A stretch of 23,010 bases of DNA from a virus, in the IMG/VR virus record IMGVR_UViG_3300028706_000601, positions 1 to 23,010 of that record; one strand, given 5' to 3'. Each line of letters opens with the position of its first letter. Position 1 is the first letter of the stretch. Shown here one piece after another: positions 1-9,961 of the stretch. Below the pieces are notes generated by a model. The model did no database searches. It was not told the DNA's origin and saw only the letters and a list, made by a program, of their open reading frames with translations. A program made the translations under genes and the position numbers.

Positions 1-309
1 AGGTATGCTTTTAAATTGTTGCAAGACATAATTCACAAACTGACTCTTATCATATGACAACATCAACATTCCAATCTCTCGTATTAAATGTCGGCCGTCG
101 ATAACACCTTCAGCACCATCTCCTACCCACTTTAATGTGGTTCTTTTAACGTTGTCGTAATCTAATTGAGAATTAAGTTGCAGTAATGATTTACATTGCT
201 CATGTATAGGATCAGCAAATGAAACTTTAGTAAAGTTGTGCTTGCGAACTAGAATGTCCGCGAAAGTGTCTTTGCCTGCTCCTTTATCACCTGTTAATGC
301 TATAATCAT
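1..309 (-). CDS. Deoxynucleoside monophosphate kinase, T4 gp1-like (C-terminus beyond window)
   Basis: The first 103 residues of a P-loop kinase are present; the rest lies beyond the left edge. The N-terminus reads MIIALTGDKGAGKDTFAD, so the Walker A motif GDKGAGKDT lies at residues 7-15. Further on, a GRHLIREIG segment followed by MLMLSYD resembles the dNMP kinases of T4-like phages (T4 gene 1 type). Such enzymes phosphorylate dNMPs, including modified ones, for phage DNA synthesis. The ATG at 307-309 overlaps the TGA stop of the upstream dpdA-like gene (ATGA), so the two are probably translationally coupled. It is the last visible gene of the 7-deazaguanine operon. The kinase fold is clear; substrate specificity is inferred. 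Confidence 0.85.
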   Translation of the reverse strand, partial: MIIALTGDKGAGKDTFADILVRKHNFTKVSFADPIHEQCKSLLQLNSQLDYDNVKRTTLKWVGDGAEGVIDGRHLIREIGMLMLSYDKSQFVNYVLQQFKSIP

Positions 310-1127
310 TTAATCAAATCATTAATGTAATTAATATTATATATTATAGACTCTTTTTGTTGAGAAGTCAACACTTTATTGTAACTAAAGTCAACTTCCT
401 TTTCGAATTTACCATCAATAAGGCCTGTTGGACTAGTGTCAAAGTGCAGGTTATGTATACCAGCCCAAATAGCTGCGCTAGAATCCCAACTATAAATGTA
501 TGGATGAAATTCCGTTAGAAGTTCTACCTCTTTCGGTCCATCCACCATACCTAAACAATGGAATTTTTTAATTGTGTGATCATCTACGGGACGACGTTCT
601 TTGAGTAACCTGAAAATTTCCCGTCTCGATAAATATCGTTGTAATCTGTTAGAGTGCGATACATCAAATGCGTTTGGTGTACTGAGAATACTTAGTCCTA
701 TGAGGTCAACACCAGCGTCTATGCCCCACTCAATTGAATCTAATAGGTCATCAACACACCCCAATTCGGCTTGTGGTACATAAAAAGTTTTAAATCCTGC
801 TTCTTTAATAGATGGTATTAATTTTTCTGCGGCTTCAGCAGTTTTTTTCCAAGGTTCTGCAGGATAATCGGACATGACAATATATTCTGCATTGCAAGCT
901 TTTCCCATTTGTATCAGCTTGTCAGACTGATACATTGGTTTTTTCTGCTTCCACATCTCAAAAGCAGAATTATCCATGATTTTTGGAAAACTGGTATTTA
1001 ATGTGGAATAAAAATCTCTATATGTTGAGCAACTCTCAACAAGATGAGCTAGTATTAAATGTGCAGTGTTGAATTGTGAAAATTGTGATAGATAAAATGT
1101 AGGGCATATGTGAGCAAATTTGATCAT
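306..1127 (-). CDS. dpdA: DpdA-like DNA-guanine transglycosylase (TGT superfamily)
   Basis: A 273-residue TIM-barrel-type protein resembling phage DpdA enzymes, paralogues of tRNA-guanine transglycosylase that exchange guanine in DNA for a 7-deazaguanine base. Supporting segments are MDNSAFE (residues 51-57), the acidic IVMSDYPAEPW (83-93), VPQAE (117-121), LGMVDGPKEV (192-201) and YSWDSSAA (212-219). The aspartates near 52, 87 and 214 are candidates for catalytic and base-recognition roles. I see no four-ligand zinc site like that at the C-terminus of bacterial Tgt, as expected for the DNA-acting branch. Context is the strongest argument: folE2, a YhhQ-type transporter and queD lie upstream in the same operon. 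An unusual tRNA-type TGT cannot be excluded. The start ATG is at 1125-1127, after a 70-base gap holding a strong hairpin. Confidence 0.78.
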   Translation of the reverse strand: MIKFAHICPTFYLSQFSQFNTAHLILAHLVESCSTYRDFYSTLNTSFPKIMDNSAFEMWKQKKPMYQSDKLIQMGKACNAEYIVMSDYPAEPWKKTAEAAEKLIPSIKEAGFKTFYVPQAELGCVDDLLDSIEWGIDAGVDLIGLSILSTPNAFDVSHSNRLQRYLSRREIFRLLKERRPVDDHTIKKFHCLGMVDGPKEVELLTEFHPYIYSWDSSAAIWAGIHNLHFDTSPTGLIDGKFEKEVDFSYNKVLTSQQKESIIYNINYINDLIK

Positions 1128-1148
1128 AATAAATTTAACTGTAGGTTG

Positions 1149-1178
1149 TTAGTTAGCAGGGTTAGGTCTGCTAACTAA
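1149..1178 (-). other. 11-bp perfect inverted repeat ahead of dpdA
   Basis: An arm TTAGTTAGCAG (1149-1159) and its exact reverse complement (1168-1178) flank an 8-base loop. It lies in the 70-base gap between the small hypothetical gene and the dpdA-like gene, about 20 bases before the start codon. No T-run follows on either strand, so an ordinary intrinsic terminator is unlikely. RNA processing, mRNA stabilisation or translational control of dpdA are possible. I could not match it to a preQ1 riboswitch consensus. Confidence 0.6.
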
Positions 1179-1197
1179 TTAAAGTGTGTATGTGGAA

Positions 1198-1470
1198 TTA
1201 TTTTAATCTATACTGTCTCAAAACACTCTTTATTCCAGGGGTAGTCTTCATGATTGTCAATGTCCCCTTATCAAGATCGAGTTCATAATCACCTTTATCT
1301 ACATCTAATCCAGCAGATTGTAAATCCCATTCTAAATCATCGAGCATAGACTCATCATCCATAAATTTGCTCAACCCCTTATAAACCTTCTTACCTTCTT
1401 GTATTGGATTTGAATCAGTCACTGCGTTTTTTACAGATGAAACTAGTGACTGCATTTGTGAAGTTTTCAC
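1198..1470 (-). CDS. Small acidic hypothetical protein, GTG start
   Basis: A 90-residue protein I do not recognise. It has an amphipathic N-terminus (KTSQMQSLVSSVKNAV), an Asp-rich middle (MDDESMLDDLEWDL, roughly residues 37-50) and a basic end (LRQYRLK). No membrane segment or cysteine motif is visible. The start is GTG at 1468-1470, one base after the queD stop. An AGGAG about nine bases upstream, inside the end of queD, supports this start; an in-frame ATG at 1455 is the alternative. Its place between queD and the dpdA-like gene suggests a role in the same pathway, but nothing in the sequence shows one. Confidence 0.7.
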   Translation of the reverse strand: MKTSQMQSLVSSVKNAVTDSNPIQEGKKVYKGLSKFMDDESMLDDLEWDLQSAGLDVDKGDYELDLDKGTLTIMKTTPGIKSVLRQYRLK

Positions 1471-1471
1471 T

Positions 1472-1855
1472 TTATTTTTCTCCTAAAAATTCTATTAAAC
1501 AACCATTTTCCTCATCTTCCGAGACATTTATAACCACATCTCGTCCGACAAACTTTTCCTGGATGTACATATGTAAATTTTCAGCTATCATTTCGCATGA
1601 CTGAAAATTTAATTTCAAAACACCCCCATCATAAAGCCCTTCCAATTCTCGTTTAAATTGTATAAACTCTATTTCTCGATCATCATGAAACACTTCAATT
1701 TGAACTTTAAAGTGAAAAATGTGTCGATGAGGATAACCTAAAAAGCTCACATCATCCAAACCGCCTGTGGCTAATGCTGGATCCGTTAATGCTTGAGGAT
1801 ATTTATGTATACCTTCTTTTTGGAACGTAACCCATATCCATCTTTTCATAGTCAT
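1472..1855 (-). CDS. queD: QueD-like 6-carboxytetrahydropterin synthase (divergent PTPS family)
   Basis: A 127-residue protein of the 6-pyruvoyl-tetrahydropterin synthase/QueD family. QueD converts dihydroneopterin triphosphate, the product of FolE or FolE2, to 6-carboxytetrahydropterin in preQ0 synthesis. Candidate zinc-binding histidines are in GIHKYP (residues 15-20) and the PHRH segment (about 42-45). The rest of the family pattern appears as DDREIEF, SCEMIAENL and the C-terminal SEDEENGC. This HRHxFH/SCExIAE version differs from canonical E. coli QueD, where the catalytic Cys lies just before an HGH motif, so the exact reaction should be treated with some caution. Its ATG overlaps the transporter stop (ATGA), which implies coupled translation in the 7-deazaguanine operon. 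Confidence 0.78.
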   Translation of the reverse strand: MTMKRWIWVTFQKEGIHKYPQALTDPALATGGLDDVSFLGYPHRHIFHFKVQIEVFHDDREIEFIQFKRELEGLYDGGVLKLNFQSCEMIAENLHMYIQEKFVGRDVVINVSEDEENGCLIEFLGEK

Positions 1856-2583
1856 TTTTTAGTTTTCGTTGCAGTTTTCTTTTTTGACTTTGTAGGTGTC
1901 GATTTTGACTTTGTAGGTGTCGATTTTGACTTTGTAGGTGTCGATTTAACCTTAGCAGGTTTTTTAACTTGTTCATCAACAATATTCATTTTACTAGATA
2001 TTGTTCTCAACAACAACCCATATGCTGGTAGAAATACTAACAACCCAACCGACATCTTAAGCAGAGTTTGCGAAGTAGCTATCTCCATCCAATTAGCGGC
2101 CATATATTCATCAGCTGAGTTAGCAAACGCTGTATAAAAGAATGTGTACGTGTCTATGATATTTGCAAAAACTGTTGATACTGCTGGAGCTAACCACCAA
2201 AAACTAAAGCGTTCTCGAATAGCTTGAAACACATAGACATCCAAAAGTGTCCCCAAAGCATAAGCTGTGGCACTAGCAAACCCTATACGCATAGCTACAG
2301 ATAAAGGAGCTCCTTCTGCGAGAATAACTAACATTGAACTGATAATTGCTATAGGATATGCTACAGCAATAGTGGCTCGTGCGACGTGTTTACCTAACAA
2401 CCTAATCGTCAAATCAGTTGCGACAACTACTAATGGAAATGTAAAAGCAGACCACGTTAGTTTTATTGTAAACAATTCAACTGGGAGATTTACTAAAGCG
2501 TTGGATACAGTAATAACTAAAATATGGAATCCAACCAATTTCCACAACATACTCTTATCTACATTTTTAAATATATTCATCAT
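1852..2583 (-). CDS. yhhQ: YhhQ/VUT-family 7-deazapurine (queuosine precursor) transporter with Lys-rich repeat tail
   Basis: A 243-residue integral membrane protein of the VUT/YhhQ (COG1738) family, which imports queuosine precursors such as preQ0 and preQ1. About six hydrophobic segments fill residues 12-205. Family signatures are visible: a charged ATDLTIRLLGKHVAR stretch, a GTLLDVYVFQAIRERF loop and an IDTYTFFYTAF segment. The C-terminus departs from the family: a hydrophilic Lys/Ser/Thr tail of about 40 residues ending in three STPTKSK copies, encoded by a perfect DNA repeat. Such a tail is presumably cytoplasmic. The gene sits between the B1 hydroxylase-like gene and queD, with an ATGA overlap into queD. 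Two adjacent ATGs (2578-2583) could serve as start; an AAAGG lies upstream. A phage-coded transporter suggests salvage of a free base to feed DpdA. Confidence 0.88.
   Translation of the reverse strand: MMNIFKNVDKSMLWKLVGFHILVITVSNALVNLPVELFTIKLTWSAFTFPLVVVATDLTIRLLGKHVARATIAVAYPIAIISSMLVILAEGAPLSVAMRIGFASATAYALGTLLDVYVFQAIRERFSFWWLAPAVSTVFANIIDTYTFFYTAFANSADEYMAANWMEIATSQTLLKMSVGLLVFLPAYGLLLRTISSKMNIVDEQVKKPAKVKSTPTKSKSTPTKSKSTPTKSKKKTATKTKK
1882..1944. repeat. Three perfect 21-bp tandem repeats in the transporter tail
   Basis: Copies run 1882-1902, 1903-1923 and 1924-1944 with no mismatch. In the transporter frame each encodes STPTKSK, making a basic Ser/Thr/Lys-rich tail. The unit is a multiple of three, so copy-number changes would keep the frame. 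The lack of synonymous differences points to recent expansion. Confidence 0.95.
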
Positions 2584-2639
2584 TTTAAATTTACCTTTTA
2601 TGGTTATTGTTTCTGGTGTATGATAACACTAATTTTTGC

Positions 2640-3293
2640 TTAAAGAATTTCTTTCATTTCCTTTCTTATGTGTTGTTTATAACTTTCATTAACTAGCCGA
2701 ATCCATTCGGGGTTGTTGTGATTTTGTTGAACTCCATGATATATCATATGAACCCTGTTCAACATTTGATCATTATGTATTATATAATGTTTGTTTGTAA
2801 GGTTTAACAATCTTGCTTCTCCTGGTCTCCAGGATATATTATAATCATTCAGATACGACTCTATTTTATCTGAATGAGACAAGCAAAAATTGACGGCTGA
2901 ATCTAGTTTGTTTGTTTTAGCATCTCTGTGTTCAATAATAAACCCGTTAGGCTCTAATAGCATGTACCGAATTCGTCGATATGGTTTACATGGGAAAGAT
3001 GTATTAAAAAAATGTTTAGCTACCGGTAACATATTCGACACTCCAGTCCAACCATATCCTGATACATCAGACGAATCATCAGATGTCGTAGTGGTTGAAT
3101 TTGCACCCCACAACGACAAACTCTTCCACCCTCTCCCATCCGTTGATCTGTGCTCAACAAAACGATCTAACAAAGGCGTAACTTCATCTAGCATAGCTTG
3201 ATAAGGTACAGTAAGATTTAAAATTAAATTTGTTAAACCAGATTTACAAATGTAGTCATATAAACCTAACTCACTTTGACTTAATCTCTCCAT
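2640..3293 (-). CDS. Aspartyl/asparaginyl beta-hydroxylase-like 2OG-Fe(II) oxygenase (cassette copy 1, B1)
   Basis: A 217-residue protein with the cupin-type pattern of Asp/Asn beta-hydroxylase-like dioxygenases. The core is RRIRYMLLEPNG (106-117), the metal motif HRD (122-124), a distal histidine at 169 and a 2OG-binding candidate R180, followed by HMIYHG. It is a clear paralogue of the 8086-8715 protein: both begin with a similar TEL/SEL-LxxxI segment and align to the same length, apart from a Ser/Thr/Asp-rich stretch near residues 65-80 here. The substrate is unknown. Its ATG lies 13 bases inside the end of the methyltransferase-like gene, so the two are probably co-translated. Placement within the 7-deazaguanine operon makes base, protein or glycan hydroxylation all possible. 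Confidence 0.75.
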   Translation of the reverse strand: MERLSQSELGLYDYICKSGLTNLILNLTVPYQAMLDEVTPLLDRFVEHRSTDGRGWKSLSLWGANSTTTTSDDSSDVSGYGWTGVSNMLPVAKHFFNTSFPCKPYRRIRYMLLEPNGFIIEHRDAKTNKLDSAVNFCLSHSDKIESYLNDYNISWRPGEARLLNLTNKHYIIHNDQMLNRVHMIYHGVQQNHNNPEWIRLVNESYKQHIRKEMKEIL

Positions 3294-4570
3294 GGAAACT
3301 CCTCTGCGGGTTGCTTTTGTATTTTTACATTTTCTGCTATAAATTTATTTGCGGGGTACCAACCTATAAAAAACGAAGTATCATGTGCACAGGAAAATAT
3401 CGTATTAAAAATGGTGTCTAACTCAGACAAACTCCTTTTGTGCCAATTAGCATAGTAATTCCCTACATTAGAAAAGTATAATATAGATTTTGGTTGACGA
3501 ATTAGTGGAATAATACTTTTCAAATCAAGCATATCCATTTCAGTTGTTAGAAGCTCAACTTTTCTACCATCGCGATATTGACCATCTCTCAAGGCATCCA
3601 TAATTTCTATCAGGTCAGGATTTCTATCTAACACATCAAAAAAATAATCATCTAATGAGTCCCTGCCCATTCTTGTCGTGTTCCACTGATAATTAGCATA
3701 CTCAGCTTGATCAAAACAAAAATCGCTATAGTTAGTTTTACGGTCCCAACCATGTATTAAGTTTTCTGTAAATCGCAAAGCATTAGGATTAGTATCAACA
3801 ATGTGTACAGTTTTAATGTGCTTGTTCACGTATAGCAAGGATTGCAACCCATTTCCACACCCTATAAAGTTTTTAAATGTTCCAGGTGTGTCATCTATGG
3901 AATATTGTTGTTCTGTTGTAAAAGGATAAATTCTATCAGATCGAGGATTTTGAAATTTTACAAGTTTTTTCACATCAACTTTTGAATTAAGAAAATCGAC
4001 ATATAAAAACTTTTTATCCTCGCGCACTTCATCAGAAAAAACCCTTATTTCTTTTCCTTGCCTTAGTAAATTCGATATTAGAAAAGAACTCGTGGCTGGA
4101 CTCTCACCAACCACATCAGCGTAAATAGGTATCTCACTACCGCCATCTTTGATCCAATGAGGAGTGTGTATGTGGTGAAAATTTTCAACTGATCTATCAA
4201 CTTTTCTAAAAGTTTTAGTGGGAGTCGGGTCATAATCCTTAACCTTCACTAACCAACATTGATCATGTAGATGAAAATACTTACGCTTGTTGTCAATGAT
4301 GTGTCCAACCAATGAAGCACCTTCTTGAAATGTGTCTACTATAACCCTTCTATTGAATCGGCTGCCAACTTTAAAAACTAAAACATATTCTGTAGTGCAA
4401 CTTAATATATCCTCATCACGTAAGGTTTGTACAAACTTCCAACCGCCCCTTTCAGTTTGTTGTTGAGCAAGTATATCTATGCAATTCAGCGCCTGCAGAT
4501 ATTCGACACTGTATTGTTTTAATTCAACGTTGTCTACAATAATATACGATAAACTACTTAAGCCCGCCAT
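3281..4570 (-). CDS. Two-domain methyltransferase-like protein (cassette copy 1, A1)
   Basis: A 429-residue protein. The N-terminal half (1-145) has a conserved block, GHIIDNKRKYFHLHDQC then TPHWIKDGG, whose family I cannot name. The C-terminal half has a Rossmann-type motif FIGCGNG (235-241) and an acidic strand end HIVDTN (256-261), which resembles class I SAM-dependent methyltransferases. The frame stays open to 4636, but the start is placed at the ATG at 4568-4570 because the first 18 residues then align without a gap to the paralogue at 8669-9961. That leaves a 17-base overlap with folE2. It ends in EEFPWRD just inside the B1 gene. SAM binding is inferred from one motif and the substrate is unknown. 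Confidence 0.7.
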   Translation of the reverse strand: MAGLSSLSYIIVDNVELKQYSVEYLQALNCIDILAQQQTERGGWKFVQTLRDEDILSCTTEYVLVFKVGSRFNRRVIVDTFQEGASLVGHIIDNKRKYFHLHDQCWLVKVKDYDPTPTKTFRKVDRSVENFHHIHTPHWIKDGGSEIPIYADVVGESPATSSFLISNLLRQGKEIRVFSDEVREDKKFLYVDFLNSKVDVKKLVKFQNPRSDRIYPFTTEQQYSIDDTPGTFKNFIGCGNGLQSLLYVNKHIKTVHIVDTNPNALRFTENLIHGWDRKTNYSDFCFDQAEYANYQWNTTRMGRDSLDDYFFDVLDRNPDLIEIMDALRDGQYRDGRKVELLTTEMDMLDLKSIIPLIRQPKSILYFSNVGNYYANWHKRSLSELDTIFNTIFSCAHDTSFFIGWYPANKFIAENVKIQKQPAEEFPWRD

Positions 4571-5567
4571 CAACACCTTTATATACCACGCAAACAGCGT
4601 TCCATGGATGTAAACTTTCGAAATGCTCCACAACAATACAAAAATCTTTTACTTGTTCCCACTCATCCAATGCCTTATATAGAATTTTACAAACATCTTC
4701 ACTAAACAAGAGATTCGACCCATTTAATTCAGCAAAAGCTTGTTCATCACGACGTTTAACAATTACCTGTACCTCTGTTGGTATATTTTTTCTGCACAAT
4801 TCAATAATGTCCTCAATCCACACCAGATCATCCGCTTTGTATTCTATAGTGACACGAGCTCTACTCCGCTGACTGTGAGCATTTGCCGCAACTCCACGTT
4901 TGTCGGTTGCATCTTTAGCCAACTCAAAAGAACATGGACACGTTGAACTGTATATATAATCTACTGTTAAATAATACTTATATGTTTCAACTCCTTCAGC
5001 ATCTTTATGCCATCTTCCCTCAAACTCTACATTGTAAGCTATATGACCTTTCAATTTCTCGTCTGATATCCATGTGCCATCTTCGATAAATCTCCCAGGC
5101 ATATCACCCACAACGTCAGATCCTTTAGGTCTAACCACCTTGCGAGTTCTGAGAGCATGTTGAAACCATGGATACTTAAATCGCAGTTTAACATATGCGT
5201 TATCTGAACCTTGTTTTTGCGCCATTTCATATAAAACATCTTGCATAGATCCTAAGGCATCTTTATTCGCCATCTTATCCATCATCAACAAATAAAATCG
5301 AGACAAATTTAAACCTTTAGCTTGTGGATCATCAAGGGAACAATACAAGGACGCTTGTGCCAAAACCTTATCCTCTACATCCATATTTTTTCGCTTAATA
5401 TAAATCGGCATGTCTACAGGAGCTATACCAACTTTTTGTATGGGTATAGTTGCTCCTGGTAAAATAGGATCTATTTGCGGATCTGGTAAACTTGCGTCAA
5501 TTGGATAGAAGTCAGCGTCATAATTAAAAATCAGATCCGACATTTTCTTTGAATAATCTATTCCCAT
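4554..5567 (-). CDS. folE2: GTP cyclohydrolase I, type IB (FolE2/MptA family)
   Basis: A 337-residue protein of the FolE2 family, which opens GTP to dihydroneopterin triphosphate, the first step towards pterins and 7-deazaguanines. Family signatures are VGIAPVDMPIYI (46-57), GLNLSRF (85-91, where bacterial enzymes often have GxHMSRF), the metal-site CPCS (210-213), AHSQRS (230-235) and a C-terminal VEHFESLHPWNA. It is longer than typical bacterial FolE2 because of N-terminal sequence and inserts around residues 140-195. AGGAA sits just before the ATG at 5565-5567. It is the first gene after the consensus promoter at 5603-5631, so it leads the 7-deazaguanine operon. FolE2 enzymes are often used in place of zinc-dependent FolE under zinc limitation. 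Confidence 0.9.
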   Translation of the reverse strand: MGIDYSKKMSDLIFNYDADFYPIDASLPDPQIDPILPGATIPIQKVGIAPVDMPIYIKRKNMDVEDKVLAQASLYCSLDDPQAKGLNLSRFYLLMMDKMANKDALGSMQDVLYEMAQKQGSDNAYVKLRFKYPWFQHALRTRKVVRPKGSDVVGDMPGRFIEDGTWISDEKLKGHIAYNVEFEGRWHKDAEGVETYKYYLTVDYIYSSTCPCSFELAKDATDKRGVAANAHSQRSRARVTIEYKADDLVWIEDIIELCRKNIPTEVQVIVKRRDEQAFAELNGSNLLFSEDVCKILYKALDEWEQVKDFCIVVEHFESLHPWNAVCVVYKGVDGGLK

Positions 5568-5787: not shown

Positions 5788-6054
5788 TCAGTTGATATTA
5801 TTAGCGAGGTCTGATTCTTTTTGCTCAGGATCGTCCTTATCCTTAAACCAGTAATCTGTACTTTTTGCTAAAACAGCCACGTATGCTCCAACCATGATAT
5901 TAACTAAATCTCGGCTTTCGGCTGGCAATGCAGTAAAAAACAACAGCCACACTAAAAATAAAAATGTGCTAACTATCATCAATGACAACACAAAACGAGC
6001 CCACCAATTCATTTTTTTTCGGCGTTCAATATTTACATGTAGATCTATCTTCAT
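5788..6054 (-). CDS. Small two-segment membrane protein, possible holin
   Basis: An 88-residue protein with a basic N-terminus (ERRKKMNWW), a strong membrane segment at about residues 18-43 (FVLSLMIVSTFLFLVWLLFF), a weaker hydrophobic segment at about 51-66 (LVNIMVGAYVAVLA) and a charged C-terminal tail (KDKDDPEQKE). Size and layout fit small phage holins, and the NIMVGAYVAVL then YWF arrangement resembles such proteins in marine phages. It is not next to the SleB hydrolase, so the lysis role is tentative. AAGGA five bases before the ATG supports the start at 6054. A general inner-membrane protein of unknown function is the alternative. Confidence 0.6.
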   Translation of the reverse strand: MKIDLHVNIERRKKMNWWARFVLSLMIVSTFLFLVWLLFFTALPAESRDLVNIMVGAYVAVLAKSTDYWFKDKDDPEQKESDLANNIN

Positions 6055-6550: not shown

Positions 6551-6806
6551 TTGGGGCGATAAGGGGGTGTTTCTGTTACGAGGCACAACCCCATAAGCCC
6601 TACAGCAATTATGCGGCTAATGCCACACTCGCTGAATAATAATCGTTATTATTTGCGATTACTTTTTCGATGTTGGTCATCACCCATCCGTTCTCGCTGT
6701 TACTCTCACTAGCAATCGAATACCAAAACACCCCCAATTCGATTATAGTTGGTGGAGGTGACCAGAGTTGAACTGGTGTCTTACTTAGTTACCCTACAGG
6801 TCATCA
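6551..6806 (-). ncRNA. ssrA: Circularly permuted (two-piece) tmRNA, alphaproteobacterial type
   Basis: Reading the minus strand, the acceptor piece comes first. Its T-arm ACCAG-TTCAACT-CTGGT (6777-6761) is followed by the acceptor 3' strand CACCTCC (6760-6754) and an encoded ACCA ending at 6750. After 14 intervening bases the coding piece starts with GGGGGTG (6735-6729), which pairs with CACCTCC over seven pairs including a G3-U wobble, the alanyl-tRNA synthetase identity element. GGTATTCGA replaces the D-arm. The reading frame 6656-6609 starts at resume codon GCA and gives ANNNDYYSASVALAA then TAA, with the classic LAA degron. A TTGCTAGT/ACTAAGTAA pairing with one bulge can form the long interpiece helix. 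A GC-rich hairpin (about 6552-6600) follows the tag. Outer ends are approximate. Confidence 0.92.
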
Positions 6807-6810
6807 AACA

Positions 6811-6827
6811 ATTATATTCTATTTATG
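6811..6827 (-). promoter_or_regulatory. Candidate promoter for the tmRNA (TATAAT, with overlapping CATAAATA)
   Basis: Just before the acceptor piece the minus strand carries a perfect -10 hexamer TATAAT (6811-6816). The best -35-like hexamer is AAGACA at 19 bases, which is suboptimal. CATAAATA (6820-6827) matches seven of eight positions of the T4 late box TATAAATA. Transcription would begin near the presumed acceptor 5' end at about 6804. Which element, if either, is used cannot be decided from sequence. Confidence 0.45.
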
Positions 6828-6847: not shown

Positions 6848-7456
6848 TTAGTTTGCATCTAACCACTTTTTATTGTAATTTGAAGTATATGCATTGGGGT
6901 ACCACGGCCCTCCTAAAGTATAATGTAGAGCTTTGATATCAGTTCTATCTTCTTCATATTCACCAACTAACCAATTCCAACGCAAATCAATCGACCCTAT
7001 ATGTTCATCATCAACCCACTGAAAGCTGTGCAAATATGATAATGGGGAATTGAAAACATCAACATCAGAATCAAATAATCCTTTATTCCAAAATATCAAG
7101 CTTGACCAATTTTTCCGATCATAATTCGTTTGTTTTCCAGACGACTTAACCTGCACTGATGATGTGTAATTCGGATGTTTACACACGTAAATTGATTTAG
7201 TATTGTCAAAATTACTCACGATCTGTTGAGGATCATCTAAAAATATAAAATCATCATCTACAAACGCCACCCATTCGTTGGTGCTCATATCTAGCTGAGG
7301 TGGTAAAAACCGTGTTCGTGTAAATGGTGTTGTTCCTTCTTCTTCAAATAATGATGGAAGCTGAAAACACTTTATATCAAACTGTGTGAGAGATTTGGCT
7401 GTTGCCTCAAATGCTTCTGGGTATTTGTGATTATACCCTATCCAAAAATTAACCAT
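6848..7456 (-). CDS. GT-A-fold glycosyltransferase-like protein
   Basis: A 202-residue protein with features of metal-dependent GT-A glycosyltransferases. EWVAFVDDDFIFLDDP (61-76) carries a DDD/DxD nucleotide-sugar motif at the end of a hydrophobic strand, and HYTLGGPWYPN near the C-terminus resembles the HxxGxxKPW metal-binding end of GT8-type enzymes. It would transfer a sugar from a nucleotide donor to an unknown acceptor. It is the last gene before the tmRNA and its ATG overlaps the exonuclease stop by eight bases. Neighbouring methyltransferase-like and hydroxylase-like genes suggest one modification module. The acceptor could be DNA, a virion protein or host surface glycan. Confidence 0.68.
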   Translation of the reverse strand: MVNFWIGYNHKYPEAFEATAKSLTQFDIKCFQLPSLFEEEGTTPFTRTRFLPPQLDMSTNEWVAFVDDDFIFLDDPQQIVSNFDNTKSIYVCKHPNYTSSVQVKSSGKQTNYDRKNWSSLIFWNKGLFDSDVDVFNSPLSYLHSFQWVDDEHIGSIDLRWNWLVGEYEEDRTDIKALHYTLGGPWYPNAYTSNYNKKWLDAN

Positions 7457-8111
7457 AATTTTGCACCGTTTCTTCTAATAGACTCCAATAATTTGGAGTT
7501 TGTTTAATAAATACTTGTGGAAGATCATTCTCAACCGCTACAACTATCACTATATTATCTATTGGAGTTTTAGTCAACTCTTCATATGCAATACTATAAA
7601 ATGTCCCTTGCAGAAAATAATCTTCTACCCACTCCTCTTTTTTATACTTTCCGGACGTCTTCCAATCTATAATAGACAATTTACCATTCCATTCGGCTAT
7701 ACAATCACACCTACCAGCCACACCGAGTTGTTTACTCCACAAAGGTACCTCTATTCCATGTATATTATCCATATTAGTATCTATAACAGATTTAATCGAT
7801 AAAAACATTTCTCGTACATTTGGGGTGGCATCGCCATAATAATCACATTCGTTGTTTATATACCGTTCAACAACTTTGTGCATTCCAGTACCACGGCGTG
7901 TAGCTCGAGTGGTAATTTTATTGGCTTCTTCCTCTCCTATTCGCTTCCTCCACTCCTTGAAGAATTTAGCTTTTTTCTTCCCCAATATCGTAGTGATAGA
8001 CGGGAAATTCCCATCAGGCGTCACGTATTTTCGCTTACCATTTATTGTTTCTGATTCTAACTCTGTAAAAGGTTGAATAGAATGTTTAAACCTTATATCC
8101 ATACTTTTCAT
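7449..8111 (-). CDS. PD-(D/E)XK exonuclease, MGME1/RecB-like
   Basis: A 220-residue nuclease with PD-(D/E)XK motifs in order: GTGMHKVVERY with H78, E121 in GIEVPL, GVAGRCDCIAEW with D136, and SIIDWKTS with D149 and K151. A YFLQGTFYSIAYEE helix carrying the usual Q follows. This is the MGME1/Cas4-like exonuclease type common in marine T4-like phages, probably acting in DNA processing, repair or host-DNA degradation. The first ATG (8109-8111) overlaps the end of the B2 gene by 26 bases; an ATG three codons later (8100-8102) is a plausible alternative. It separates the B2 hydroxylase-like gene from the glycosyltransferase. Confidence 0.8.
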   Translation of the reverse strand: MKSMDIRFKHSIQPFTELESETINGKRKYVTPDGNFPSITTILGKKKAKFFKEWRKRIGEEEANKITTRATRRGTGMHKVVERYINNECDYYGDATPNVREMFLSIKSVIDTNMDNIHGIEVPLWSKQLGVAGRCDCIAEWNGKLSIIDWKTSGKYKKEEWVEDYFLQGTFYSIAYEELTKTPIDNIVIVVAVENDLPQVFIKQTPNYWSLLEETVQNYG

Positions 8112-8715
8112 AACTATTTAATACTATACGTTGAAAATCTTTATCAGTTCGCAAACCCTTACCATGCAAAATCATATGCAGTCTACGCTCTTGTGAATTG
8201 TTAATAACAGTGTGTTTAAAATGTACATTCATAAGTCTAACGTCACCTGGCTTCCAAGGTATCGTTTGACCATTAATAATGAAATCGCAGTCTTTCGGTT
8301 GATTAATGCAAAAATTTATCGCACTGCATAATCGAGGGTAAGATATGTCGCTATGTAGTGGTATAGTTCCACCAGGCTCTAACAGCATAAATCTAATCCG
8401 ATCCACATCTCTAACAGGGAAATTTTTAAAATATTCAGTAGTCACATCAAGAATGTCAGCAAACTCAGTCCAATGTAACTCCGGATCACCTGGGTGAGAA
8501 TCACCAGGCCGGAACCAATGACTTCCTCTCAAACACAAACCTTTCCACATACCAGCCGCGGCTACGGGTCTGTGCTCTTTAAATTGATCTAAAAATGGAT
8601 AAATTTCATCATAAATTTCATTATATGGAAATGGTATATCCAACTTCATATTAGTTATATGAGAATTGTTAATCTCGTTGAAGAGCTTCAATTCGGTTTT
8701 TGTAATATGTGTCAT
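8086..8715 (-). CDS. Aspartyl/asparaginyl beta-hydroxylase-like 2OG-Fe(II) oxygenase (cassette copy 2, B2)
   Basis: A 209-residue paralogue of the 2640-3293 protein. The catalytic pattern is cleaner here: DRIRFMLLEPGGTIPLHSD (105-123) with the HSD metal motif at 121-123, distal H168 in HFKHTVINN, and R177/R178 before LHMILHG. SAINFCIN and WKPGDVRLMN match the family's beta strands. The N-terminus aligns residue for residue with B1 (TEL/SEL-Lx-I pattern), which supports the ATG at 8713-8715 even though it lies 47 bases inside the upstream gene. That large overlap arises because the upstream A2 protein has a C-terminal extension that A1 lacks. Substrate unknown; translation is probably coupled to A2. 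Confidence 0.78.
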   Translation of the reverse strand: MTHITKTELKLFNEINNSHITNMKLDIPFPYNEIYDEIYPFLDQFKEHRPVAAAGMWKGLCLRGSHWFRPGDSHPGDPELHWTEFADILDVTTEYFKNFPVRDVDRIRFMLLEPGGTIPLHSDISYPRLCSAINFCINQPKDCDFIINGQTIPWKPGDVRLMNVHFKHTVINNSQERRLHMILHGKGLRTDKDFQRIVLNSYEKYGYKV

Positions 8716-9961
8716 ATAAAGTTTTTCTCCAAGGAAGATCCAAAGCAGTATTCAATTGTAAATCTTTTTTGGTGTATACCTTTGAACCTCTAAACGGCAC
8801 CATACCCAAAAAAGCTGAATCATTATCCATGTGAGACAACACAAAACAAAACAACAAATCTGCGTCGATTGCGGAAATTGCATGGAACGTGTTTGCATAT
8901 GACAATATATTTGAATAGTATATAATTGTATTTGGCATCTTCAACGCATATAAGATCTTATAAACATCAAGCATGTCAGTATGCATAAAACTAGTATAGA
9001 TTCGCTTATTTCGAATATTATCTAGTGTCTCAAAAAAATCAGATTTTTTATCTATATGGTCTAAAAAATACTCATCAGGAGATATTTCTTTCTTGTGTAT
9101 AAAATTATCACCTGTATTAAATTTTTCCACAGCTTGTTCATATGTTTCATTGCGCCAGTTCCAATCATATATTATGTATTTTGTAAAGTTTATTGCATCA
9201 ATGTTTGTATCGAAGAAATGAATCGACTCTAAATTTGGATGAGCATACAATAAAATCTGTAATGCGTTAGCACAACCTACAAGGTTAGTATAATTTTCAC
9301 ATTTAATATCATATGTTTTTTCTGTGCTAATTGGGAACAATATTGGCGGTCTGTTTCGCACATTCTGAATATGGCTACTGACGTCATGTGGATAGATATA
9401 ACTTTTATCGTTCCGGATTGTTTGTGGAAAAGGCATTACAATCTTACCGCTCCGCAACAAGTTGGAAATTAGATCAGCTCCTTGAGGTTTTTGTGCTGTA
9501 CTTTCAAACTCTTCTCCTCCATCTTTGATCCACGTAGGCGTATATTGATCATGAAAGTTTTCATCAGATCTACATACGCGTCTATGAGTTTTATTCACAG
9601 TCACGTCATAATCTAACACTTTAACCAAATAGCACTGATCGTGCAATTCATAATATCCAGTATTCTTGTCTAAGATGTGTCCAATTAGAGAAGCTTCCTC
9701 CATCAAATTCATTACCATTAAAGTACTATTAAAAAACGTACCAATCTTAACTATCAAAGCGTGCGATGTTTCACATGAAGTAATATCATTACATGTCAAC
9801 GACGAAACATACTTCCACTTATAACACATTGTACCCTTATCACCTACATGATACCATACAATATGATCTATAATATTCAATGCTGTTTGATAACCAAAAG
9901 GGTGTTTTTTTAGTTCTAGATTATCAACTACAACAATGGTTATATTTTCTCGAGAAATCAT
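8669..9961 (-). CDS. Two-domain methyltransferase-like protein (cassette copy 2, A2)
   Basis: A 430-residue paralogue of the 3281-4570 protein. Shared blocks are VDNLELKK near the start, LIGHILDKN then YYELHDQCYLVKVLDYD (about 92-119), TPTWIKDGG (141-149) and a Rossmann-like core with HFFDTN (248-253). The glycine-rich loop, GCGNG in A1, reads GCANA here (229-233): two glycines are replaced by alanine, so SAM binding may be weakened or lost. After the shared PWR near the end it extends about 17 residues further than A1, running 47 bases into the B2 gene. Its ATG overlaps the FmdB-like stop (ATGA). Function is unknown beyond the methyltransferase-like fold guess. Confidence 0.68.
   Translation of the reverse strand: MISRENITIVVVDNLELKKHPFGYQTALNIIDHIVWYHVGDKGTMCYKWKYVSSLTCNDITSCETSHALIVKIGTFFNSTLMVMNLMEEASLIGHILDKNTGYYELHDQCYLVKVLDYDVTVNKTHRRVCRSDENFHDQYTPTWIKDGGEEFESTAQKPQGADLISNLLRSGKIVMPFPQTIRNDKSYIYPHDVSSHIQNVRNRPPILFPISTEKTYDIKCENYTNLVGCANALQILLYAHPNLESIHFFDTNIDAINFTKYIIYDWNWRNETYEQAVEKFNTGDNFIHKKEISPDEYFLDHIDKKSDFFETLDNIRNKRIYTSFMHTDMLDVYKILYALKMPNTIIYYSNILSYANTFHAISAIDADLLFCFVLSHMDNDSAFLGMVPFRGSKVYTKKDLQLNTALDLPWRKTLYDTYYKNRIEALQRD

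Follow-up and report, generated by a model that had tools for sequence, protein, structure and literature searches.

The window analysed here, meaning the whole stretch of 23,010 bases that makes up this virus record, carries T4-type replication genes, among them a gp61-like primase (PHROG 47) and a T4 RNase H, and the virus is T4-like and marine. ARAGORN identifies a single permuted tmRNA gene on the minus strand (c6518-6846), whose tag ANNNDYYSASVALAA is followed by a stop. The minus strand from 6810 to 6609 matches the Rfam family RF04321 (tmRNA_permuted) over its full length (1-213) with 84.5 bits and an E-value of 3.6e-15, the gathering score of this family being 47 bits. A first-pass annotation, made from the letters alone, had described an intact, phage-borne, permuted two-piece tmRNA with its own tag and had suggested a covariance-model search as a check; the ARAGORN call, the RF04321 score of 84.5 against 47 bits and the covariation presented below all agree with that description. 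The tmRNA is indeed located in the interval 6551-6806 given there, but the gene is longer, the acceptor piece starting near 6810-6814 and the post-tag pseudoknot reaching about 6563-6553.

The permuted order is evident from the position of the acceptor half (CCA at 6752-6750), which is encoded upstream of the 5' half (GGGG at 6735) on the minus strand, with a 14-base spacer between them. The 5' part of the acceptor piece (6778..6810, from the Rfam start at 6810) includes the 3' strand of P2, AACTAAGTAAGAC, at 6790-6778. It is followed by the T-arm ACCAG-TTCAACT-CTGGT (6761..6777) and by the segment 6750..6760, which holds the acceptor 3' strand CACCTCC (6760-6754), the discriminator A (6753) and the encoded CCA; both are supported by reading, Rfam and covariation. 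The intervening segment ACTATAATCGAATT (6736..6749, from reading) is without an open frame and is expected to be excised during processing. The 5' end of the coding piece (6707..6735; reading, Rfam, covariation) comprises GGGGGTG (6735-6729), TTCGA and the 5' strand of P2, TTGCTAGTG (6715-6707). The acceptor stem GGGGGTG/CACCTCC has seven pairs, the third of which is G-U. The tag frame (6609..6656; ARAGORN, Rfam) opens at the alanine resume codon GCA and closes with VALAA-TAA, a ClpX-type LAA end. The 3' part of the coding piece forms the post-tag pseudoknot/hairpin GGGC...GGGGTTGT-GCCTCGTAACAGAA-ACACCCCC (6563..6600), whose stem covaries among relatives, its sequence being free to vary while pairing is maintained. 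In the window this stem contains a single U-C mismatch (6563-6592, GGGGTTGT/ACACCCCC), and in the closest relative, L122, the same stem is fully paired (GGGGTTGT/ACAACCCC). The encoded CCA, the T-arm, the seven-pair acceptor stem with its G3-U wobble, the 14-base spacer and the tag with its stop, all listed in the first-pass annotation, were thus recovered on the minus strand.

Relatives were drawn from IMG/VR by a permuted-acceptor pattern, a tag pattern and the neighbour proteins; the adjacent gene 6848-7456, used as a query, gave no usable loci. Over all loci, ARAGORN called 96 permuted genes with an NNxDY-type core in the tag (PANN) and 151 permuted genes bearing other tags (POTH). In 30 distinct PANN genes, the acceptor stem and the T-arm are paired in 357 of 360 cells (209/210 for the acceptor stem and 148/150 for the T-arm), compensatory changes are found at 7 of the 12 pairs, and slid controls are paired at 17-66%. 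Because pairing and compensatory changes are kept in 30 distinct relatives, the tmRNA is a real, selected RNA. The compensatory pairs anticipated earlier in relatives are therefore present, and with the gene intact and its locus conserved, the view that it is not a remnant of an attachment site holds. A captured gene persisting as a passenger or decaying copy, under no selection in the phage, might account for the mismatch in the post-tag stem and for the loss, in the window's lineage, of a microprotein frame described below; the conserved position, the compensatory changes and the intact tag make it highly improbable.

Two neighbours are kept with the tmRNA: upstream, a PD-(D/E)XK nuclease-like protein (7449..8111, minus strand; Pfam PF12705 and synteny) and downstream, an 88-aa protein of unknown function (5788..6054, minus strand; synteny). 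According to the ARAGORN placement, the tmRNA sits between these genes in 40 of the 49 loci that have both, a figure biased toward tmRNA carriers since the loci were mostly retrieved via the tmRNA itself. The remaining 9, retrieved by the tmRNA pattern, probably hold tmRNA genes missed by ARAGORN. The tmRNA region is also flanked by two alike two-gene modules (2640-4636 and 8086-9961, minus strand): judged by eye from the translations, 3281-4636 is similar to 8669-9961, and 2640-3293 (Asp/Arg hydroxylase-like, Pfam PF05118) to 8086-8715. Farther along the minus strand, the interval 306-5567 encodes a FolE2-type GTP cyclohydrolase (PF02649) and a Vut_1 transporter (PF02592), together with 306-1127 and 1472-1855, which look 7-deazaguanine pathway-like by eye and are without a Pfam match; these are possible DNA modification genes.

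Directly upstream of the acceptor piece lies a T4-type late promoter box, CATAAATA (6820..6827, minus strand), with one mismatch to the consensus TATAAATA. Taken alone, this one-mismatch box is not significant; among 55 distinct related genes, a late box within one mismatch is found in 48, with a mean of 16.9 and a maximum of 27 in shuffles, and it is exact in 23. Sigma-70 promoters show no excess over shuffles. The tmRNAs of marine phages of the OM43 phage Melnitz type (PMC9004378) are likewise permuted and belong to T4-like marine myophages, but the window differs from them by its late-type rather than early promoter box and by its SAR324-like tag and P2, and a search of the window against Rfam gave no match to a glutamine riboswitch.

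The tag points to a probable host group. The pattern ANNxDY then VALAA, with the VALAA ending required, was scanned in 84,980 bacterial and archaeal species, one genome each, and matched 11 contigs. Eight of them carry standard one-piece tmRNAs and all belong to one phylum group (titled SAR324 in six cases, Deltaproteobacteria in one and Proteobacteria in one). The other three hold permuted genes in Flavobacteriales, Chloroflexi and Saprospiraceae MAGs, and are probable misbinned phage. Such permuted SAR324-tag tmRNAs in MAGs of these groups are represented by L325, L329, L330 and MAG G009, the last having three permuted genes over the cut-off on what are probably misbinned phage contigs. Among the 52 SAR324-phylum genomes, 35 contain a standard tmRNA over the cut-off and none a permuted one; the tags read from this phylum are ANNADYTPARVALAA, ANNSDYAPAHAAIAA and similar. 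The window tag is thus of the SAR324 type and looks host-matched, on a gene that, unlike the SAR324 tmRNA, does not have the standard one-piece order.

Independently of the tag, the P2 stem points the same way. The motif AAGTAAGAC occurs in 35/96 PANN genes, 4/44 SAR324 tmRNA loci, 0/151 POTH genes and 0/26 other standard tmRNAs, and a longer P2 pattern is confined, in the SAR324 genomes, to tmRNA loci. The pattern TTCGATTGC[TA]AGTG is found in 4/96 related phage genes, 7/44 SAR324 loci and 0/151 other permuted genes. The SAR324 one-piece tmRNA (RF00023) has the same tag type as the window, ANN[AS]DY.P..VALAA, and the two also agree in the P2 stem, AACTAAGTAAGAC / TTCGATTGCTAGTG, which is identical to that of L331. 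Because tag and P2 are similar to those of SAR324, we infer that a SAR324 host would be the simplest reading. The phage primase has no match in the 52 SAR324 genomes, in a search that had no positive control and is not informative, and the related contigs hold no tRNAs that might serve as a host clue.

The first-pass annotation had proposed instead that the gene was captured from an alphaproteobacterium infected by the phage, with a tag that may differ from the host's and re-route degradation. Some related genes that share the window's tag type (L032, L350 and L396) do exceed the Rfam alpha_tmRNA cut-off, and SAR11 and OM43 phages are known with alphaproteobacterial-like permuted tmRNAs (PMC9004378). 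The window itself is under the cut-offs of both subfamilies: its best clan model is the beta one (RF01850), at 44.7 bits against a cut-off of 84, and the alpha model (RF01849), named in the annotation as the check to run, is not its best clan match, the window falling short of its 50 bits. RF01850 aligns the post-tag pseudoknot, and RF04321 is matched full length. Furthermore, the ANNxDY...VALAA tag was seen in 0 alphaproteobacteria among the 84,980 species genomes, its type being found, in bacteria, only in SAR324, whose tmRNA is one-piece, and the P2 motifs are present in 0/151 other permuted genes. The tag scan, the model cut-offs and the P2 motifs rule out alphaproteobacterial capture as the main reading, and we regard it as improbable. 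No sign of re-routed degradation was seen, and the SAR324 type of the tag makes matching the preferred interpretation, provided that SAR324 is the host, as the tag and P2 suggest.

How a SAR324-like tag came to stand in a permuted gene is addressed by the other parts of the RNA. Unlike the window, the SAR324 tmRNA has the standard order, a length of about 375 nt and further pseudoknots, and it lacks the post-tag motif CCTnGnAACAGAA, which is present in 86/96 PANN genes, 37/151 POTH genes, 0/44 SAR324 loci and 0/26 other standard tmRNAs. In the tag-excluded tree, the PANN genes form a single clade (100/99) among the permuted genes (97/98), with SAR324 separate; in the tree of the tRNA-like domain, most PANN rows fall inside SAR324 on a weak branch (87/82). 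AU tests reject neither the full-scaffold nor the tRNA-like-domain arrangement (p 0.18-0.36). One explanation is that a SAR324 one-piece tmRNA was permuted anew in the phage, which would make it an independent two-piece origin with a pseudoknot altered later and an unchanged function. The SAR324-specific tag type and P2 motifs and the tRNA-like-domain tree speak for it, but the full tag-excluded tree joins the phage set to the other permuted tmRNAs, CCTnGnAACAGAA is shared with these and absent from SAR324, and the AU tests do not decide for it; we consider such an origin possible, if rather doubtful. The favoured origin is a permuted viral scaffold that has received host-matched tag and tRNA-like parts.

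Parts are exchanged among the related genes. The acceptor piece, the spacer and the pre-tag region of the window are 95%, 93% and 92% identical to those of L122, respectively, but identity falls to 62% in the tag DNA and 76% in the post-tag region. L122 and L102 are 86% alike in the tag DNA and just 71-79% in the flanks. With a tag and a tRNA-like stem like those of SAR324, and a permuted order and a post-tag pseudoknot like those of other viral permuted tmRNAs, the gene is, from its sequence, clearly a mosaic whose modules recombine. The comparison of window 6656-6609 with L122 12954-13296 shows a tag cassette exchanged on a near-identical scaffold, and a 20-aa extended tag, ANF[NF]AAN[HN]SDYSPARVALAA, is common to L122/L056 and to L102/L258-type genes.

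We therefore propose, with reasonable but not full confidence, that this T4-like marine phage, whose host is probably SAR324, encodes a functional late two-piece tmRNA, which uses the host SmpB and adds a host-type tag. Two-piece tmRNAs mature by cleavage of a precursor at two sites, the CCA and the 5' GGGG, after which the pieces remain paired. Here, a single precursor would be transcribed late, as suggested by the promoter box, and the host tRNA enzymes would make both of these cuts, thereby excising the 14-base spacer; the acceptor and coding pieces would stay joined via the acceptor stem and P2. The host AlaRS would charge the RNA by reading the G3-U pair, and the host SmpB would carry it. 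The latter would be required because no SmpB was found in the window or in 12 other virus records, which are fragments in which absence is no proof. Ribosomes stalled on broken mRNA would then be rescued with the addition of ANNNDYYSASVALAA, and the tagged products would go to host ClpXP-like proteases, that is, to normal host proteolysis. Late expression, if the box is used, would suit rescue on decaying mRNA during assembly.

Mycobacteriophage tmRNAs (Bxz1-like, DS6A) are phage-encoded, as is that of the window, and the Bxz1 type is one-piece. The DS6A tmRNA is described as tag-less, and as interfering with trans-translation or with the host tmRNA, in PMC11915505. By analogy with such a tmRNA-like inhibitor, the phage RNA could compete with the host tmRNA or block trans-translation, and a two-piece RNA might suit a one-piece host poorly as a substrate. 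The related genes nevertheless retain a full host-like tag frame, a stop and an ALAA-type end, which would be needless in an inhibitor, and an interfering role seems unlikely to us.

The first-pass annotation called phage tmRNAs rare, which is fair, as 402 of 18,146 phage genomes have one; the two-piece form accounts for 53 of 133 unique phage tmRNA structures, 50 of these 53 being marine or aquatic (PMC9004378). Phage two-piece tmRNAs are thus already published (PMC9004378), and what is new here is the tag type, the probable host group and the visible swapping of tags. A DNA search of 50,697 phage records gave no match to the window tmRNA, and no isolate phage with a window-type RNA was found, the matches of locus L166 being T-arm stretches of about 30-35 bases. 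If our proposal is true, phages keep a ribosome-rescue RNA with a tag tuned to the host in an architecture unlike the host's, and the gain to the phage from trans-translation late in infection becomes testable. The tag and the P2 stem would also provide a sequence-based host clue for uncultured SAR324 phages.

The intervening segment adds a further dimension in sister genes. In many PANN genes it spans 95-150 bases, against 14 in the window, and all 36 distinct long PANN spacers (L358, L209, L204, L329, L359, L340 and L230 are among the carriers) contain an ATG-initiated frame whose hydrophobic segment would suffice for one membrane helix; of the 69 similarly long POTH spacers, 2 have a comparable membrane frame. 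A Shine-Dalgarno-like sequence lies immediately past the CCA in 28/36. The frame stops within the spacer in 33/36, mostly 1-9 bases ahead of the coding piece and most commonly one base before GGGG, and extends into the coding piece in 3/36. The predicted microprotein is mostly 27-33 aa long (e.g. MEKKLMWVAVMILLGLCLTYATLYFGYDFR), has no significant family match in Pfam or PHROG, and shows dN/dS values of 0.15-0.46 within families. Over all loci examined, the main family is found inside tmRNA genes in 26 of 27 matches, and the 27th (L335) adjoins a tag match uncalled by ARAGORN. Since the short-spacer group nests within long-spacer lineages on the tree, the window's lineage has probably lost the frame secondarily. 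It appears likely, then, that the tmRNA gene of this phage lineage is bifunctional, its spacer, a part ordinarily thrown away, being a translated late membrane microprotein gene that was lost in the window, and its tag being host-matched by cassette swapping. Our literature searches found no report of a protein gene nested in a tmRNA precursor, and this arrangement in the sister viruses is the likeliest surprise to specialists. Two genes with another tag, ANDELFAIAA (L229 and L282), also have a membrane ORF in the intervening segment, MDDDLTRFIIGFAIIVLILFVFL, preceded by the Shine-Dalgarno sequence TAAGGAG and ending with a stop one base before GGGG, which is perhaps a second, independent case.
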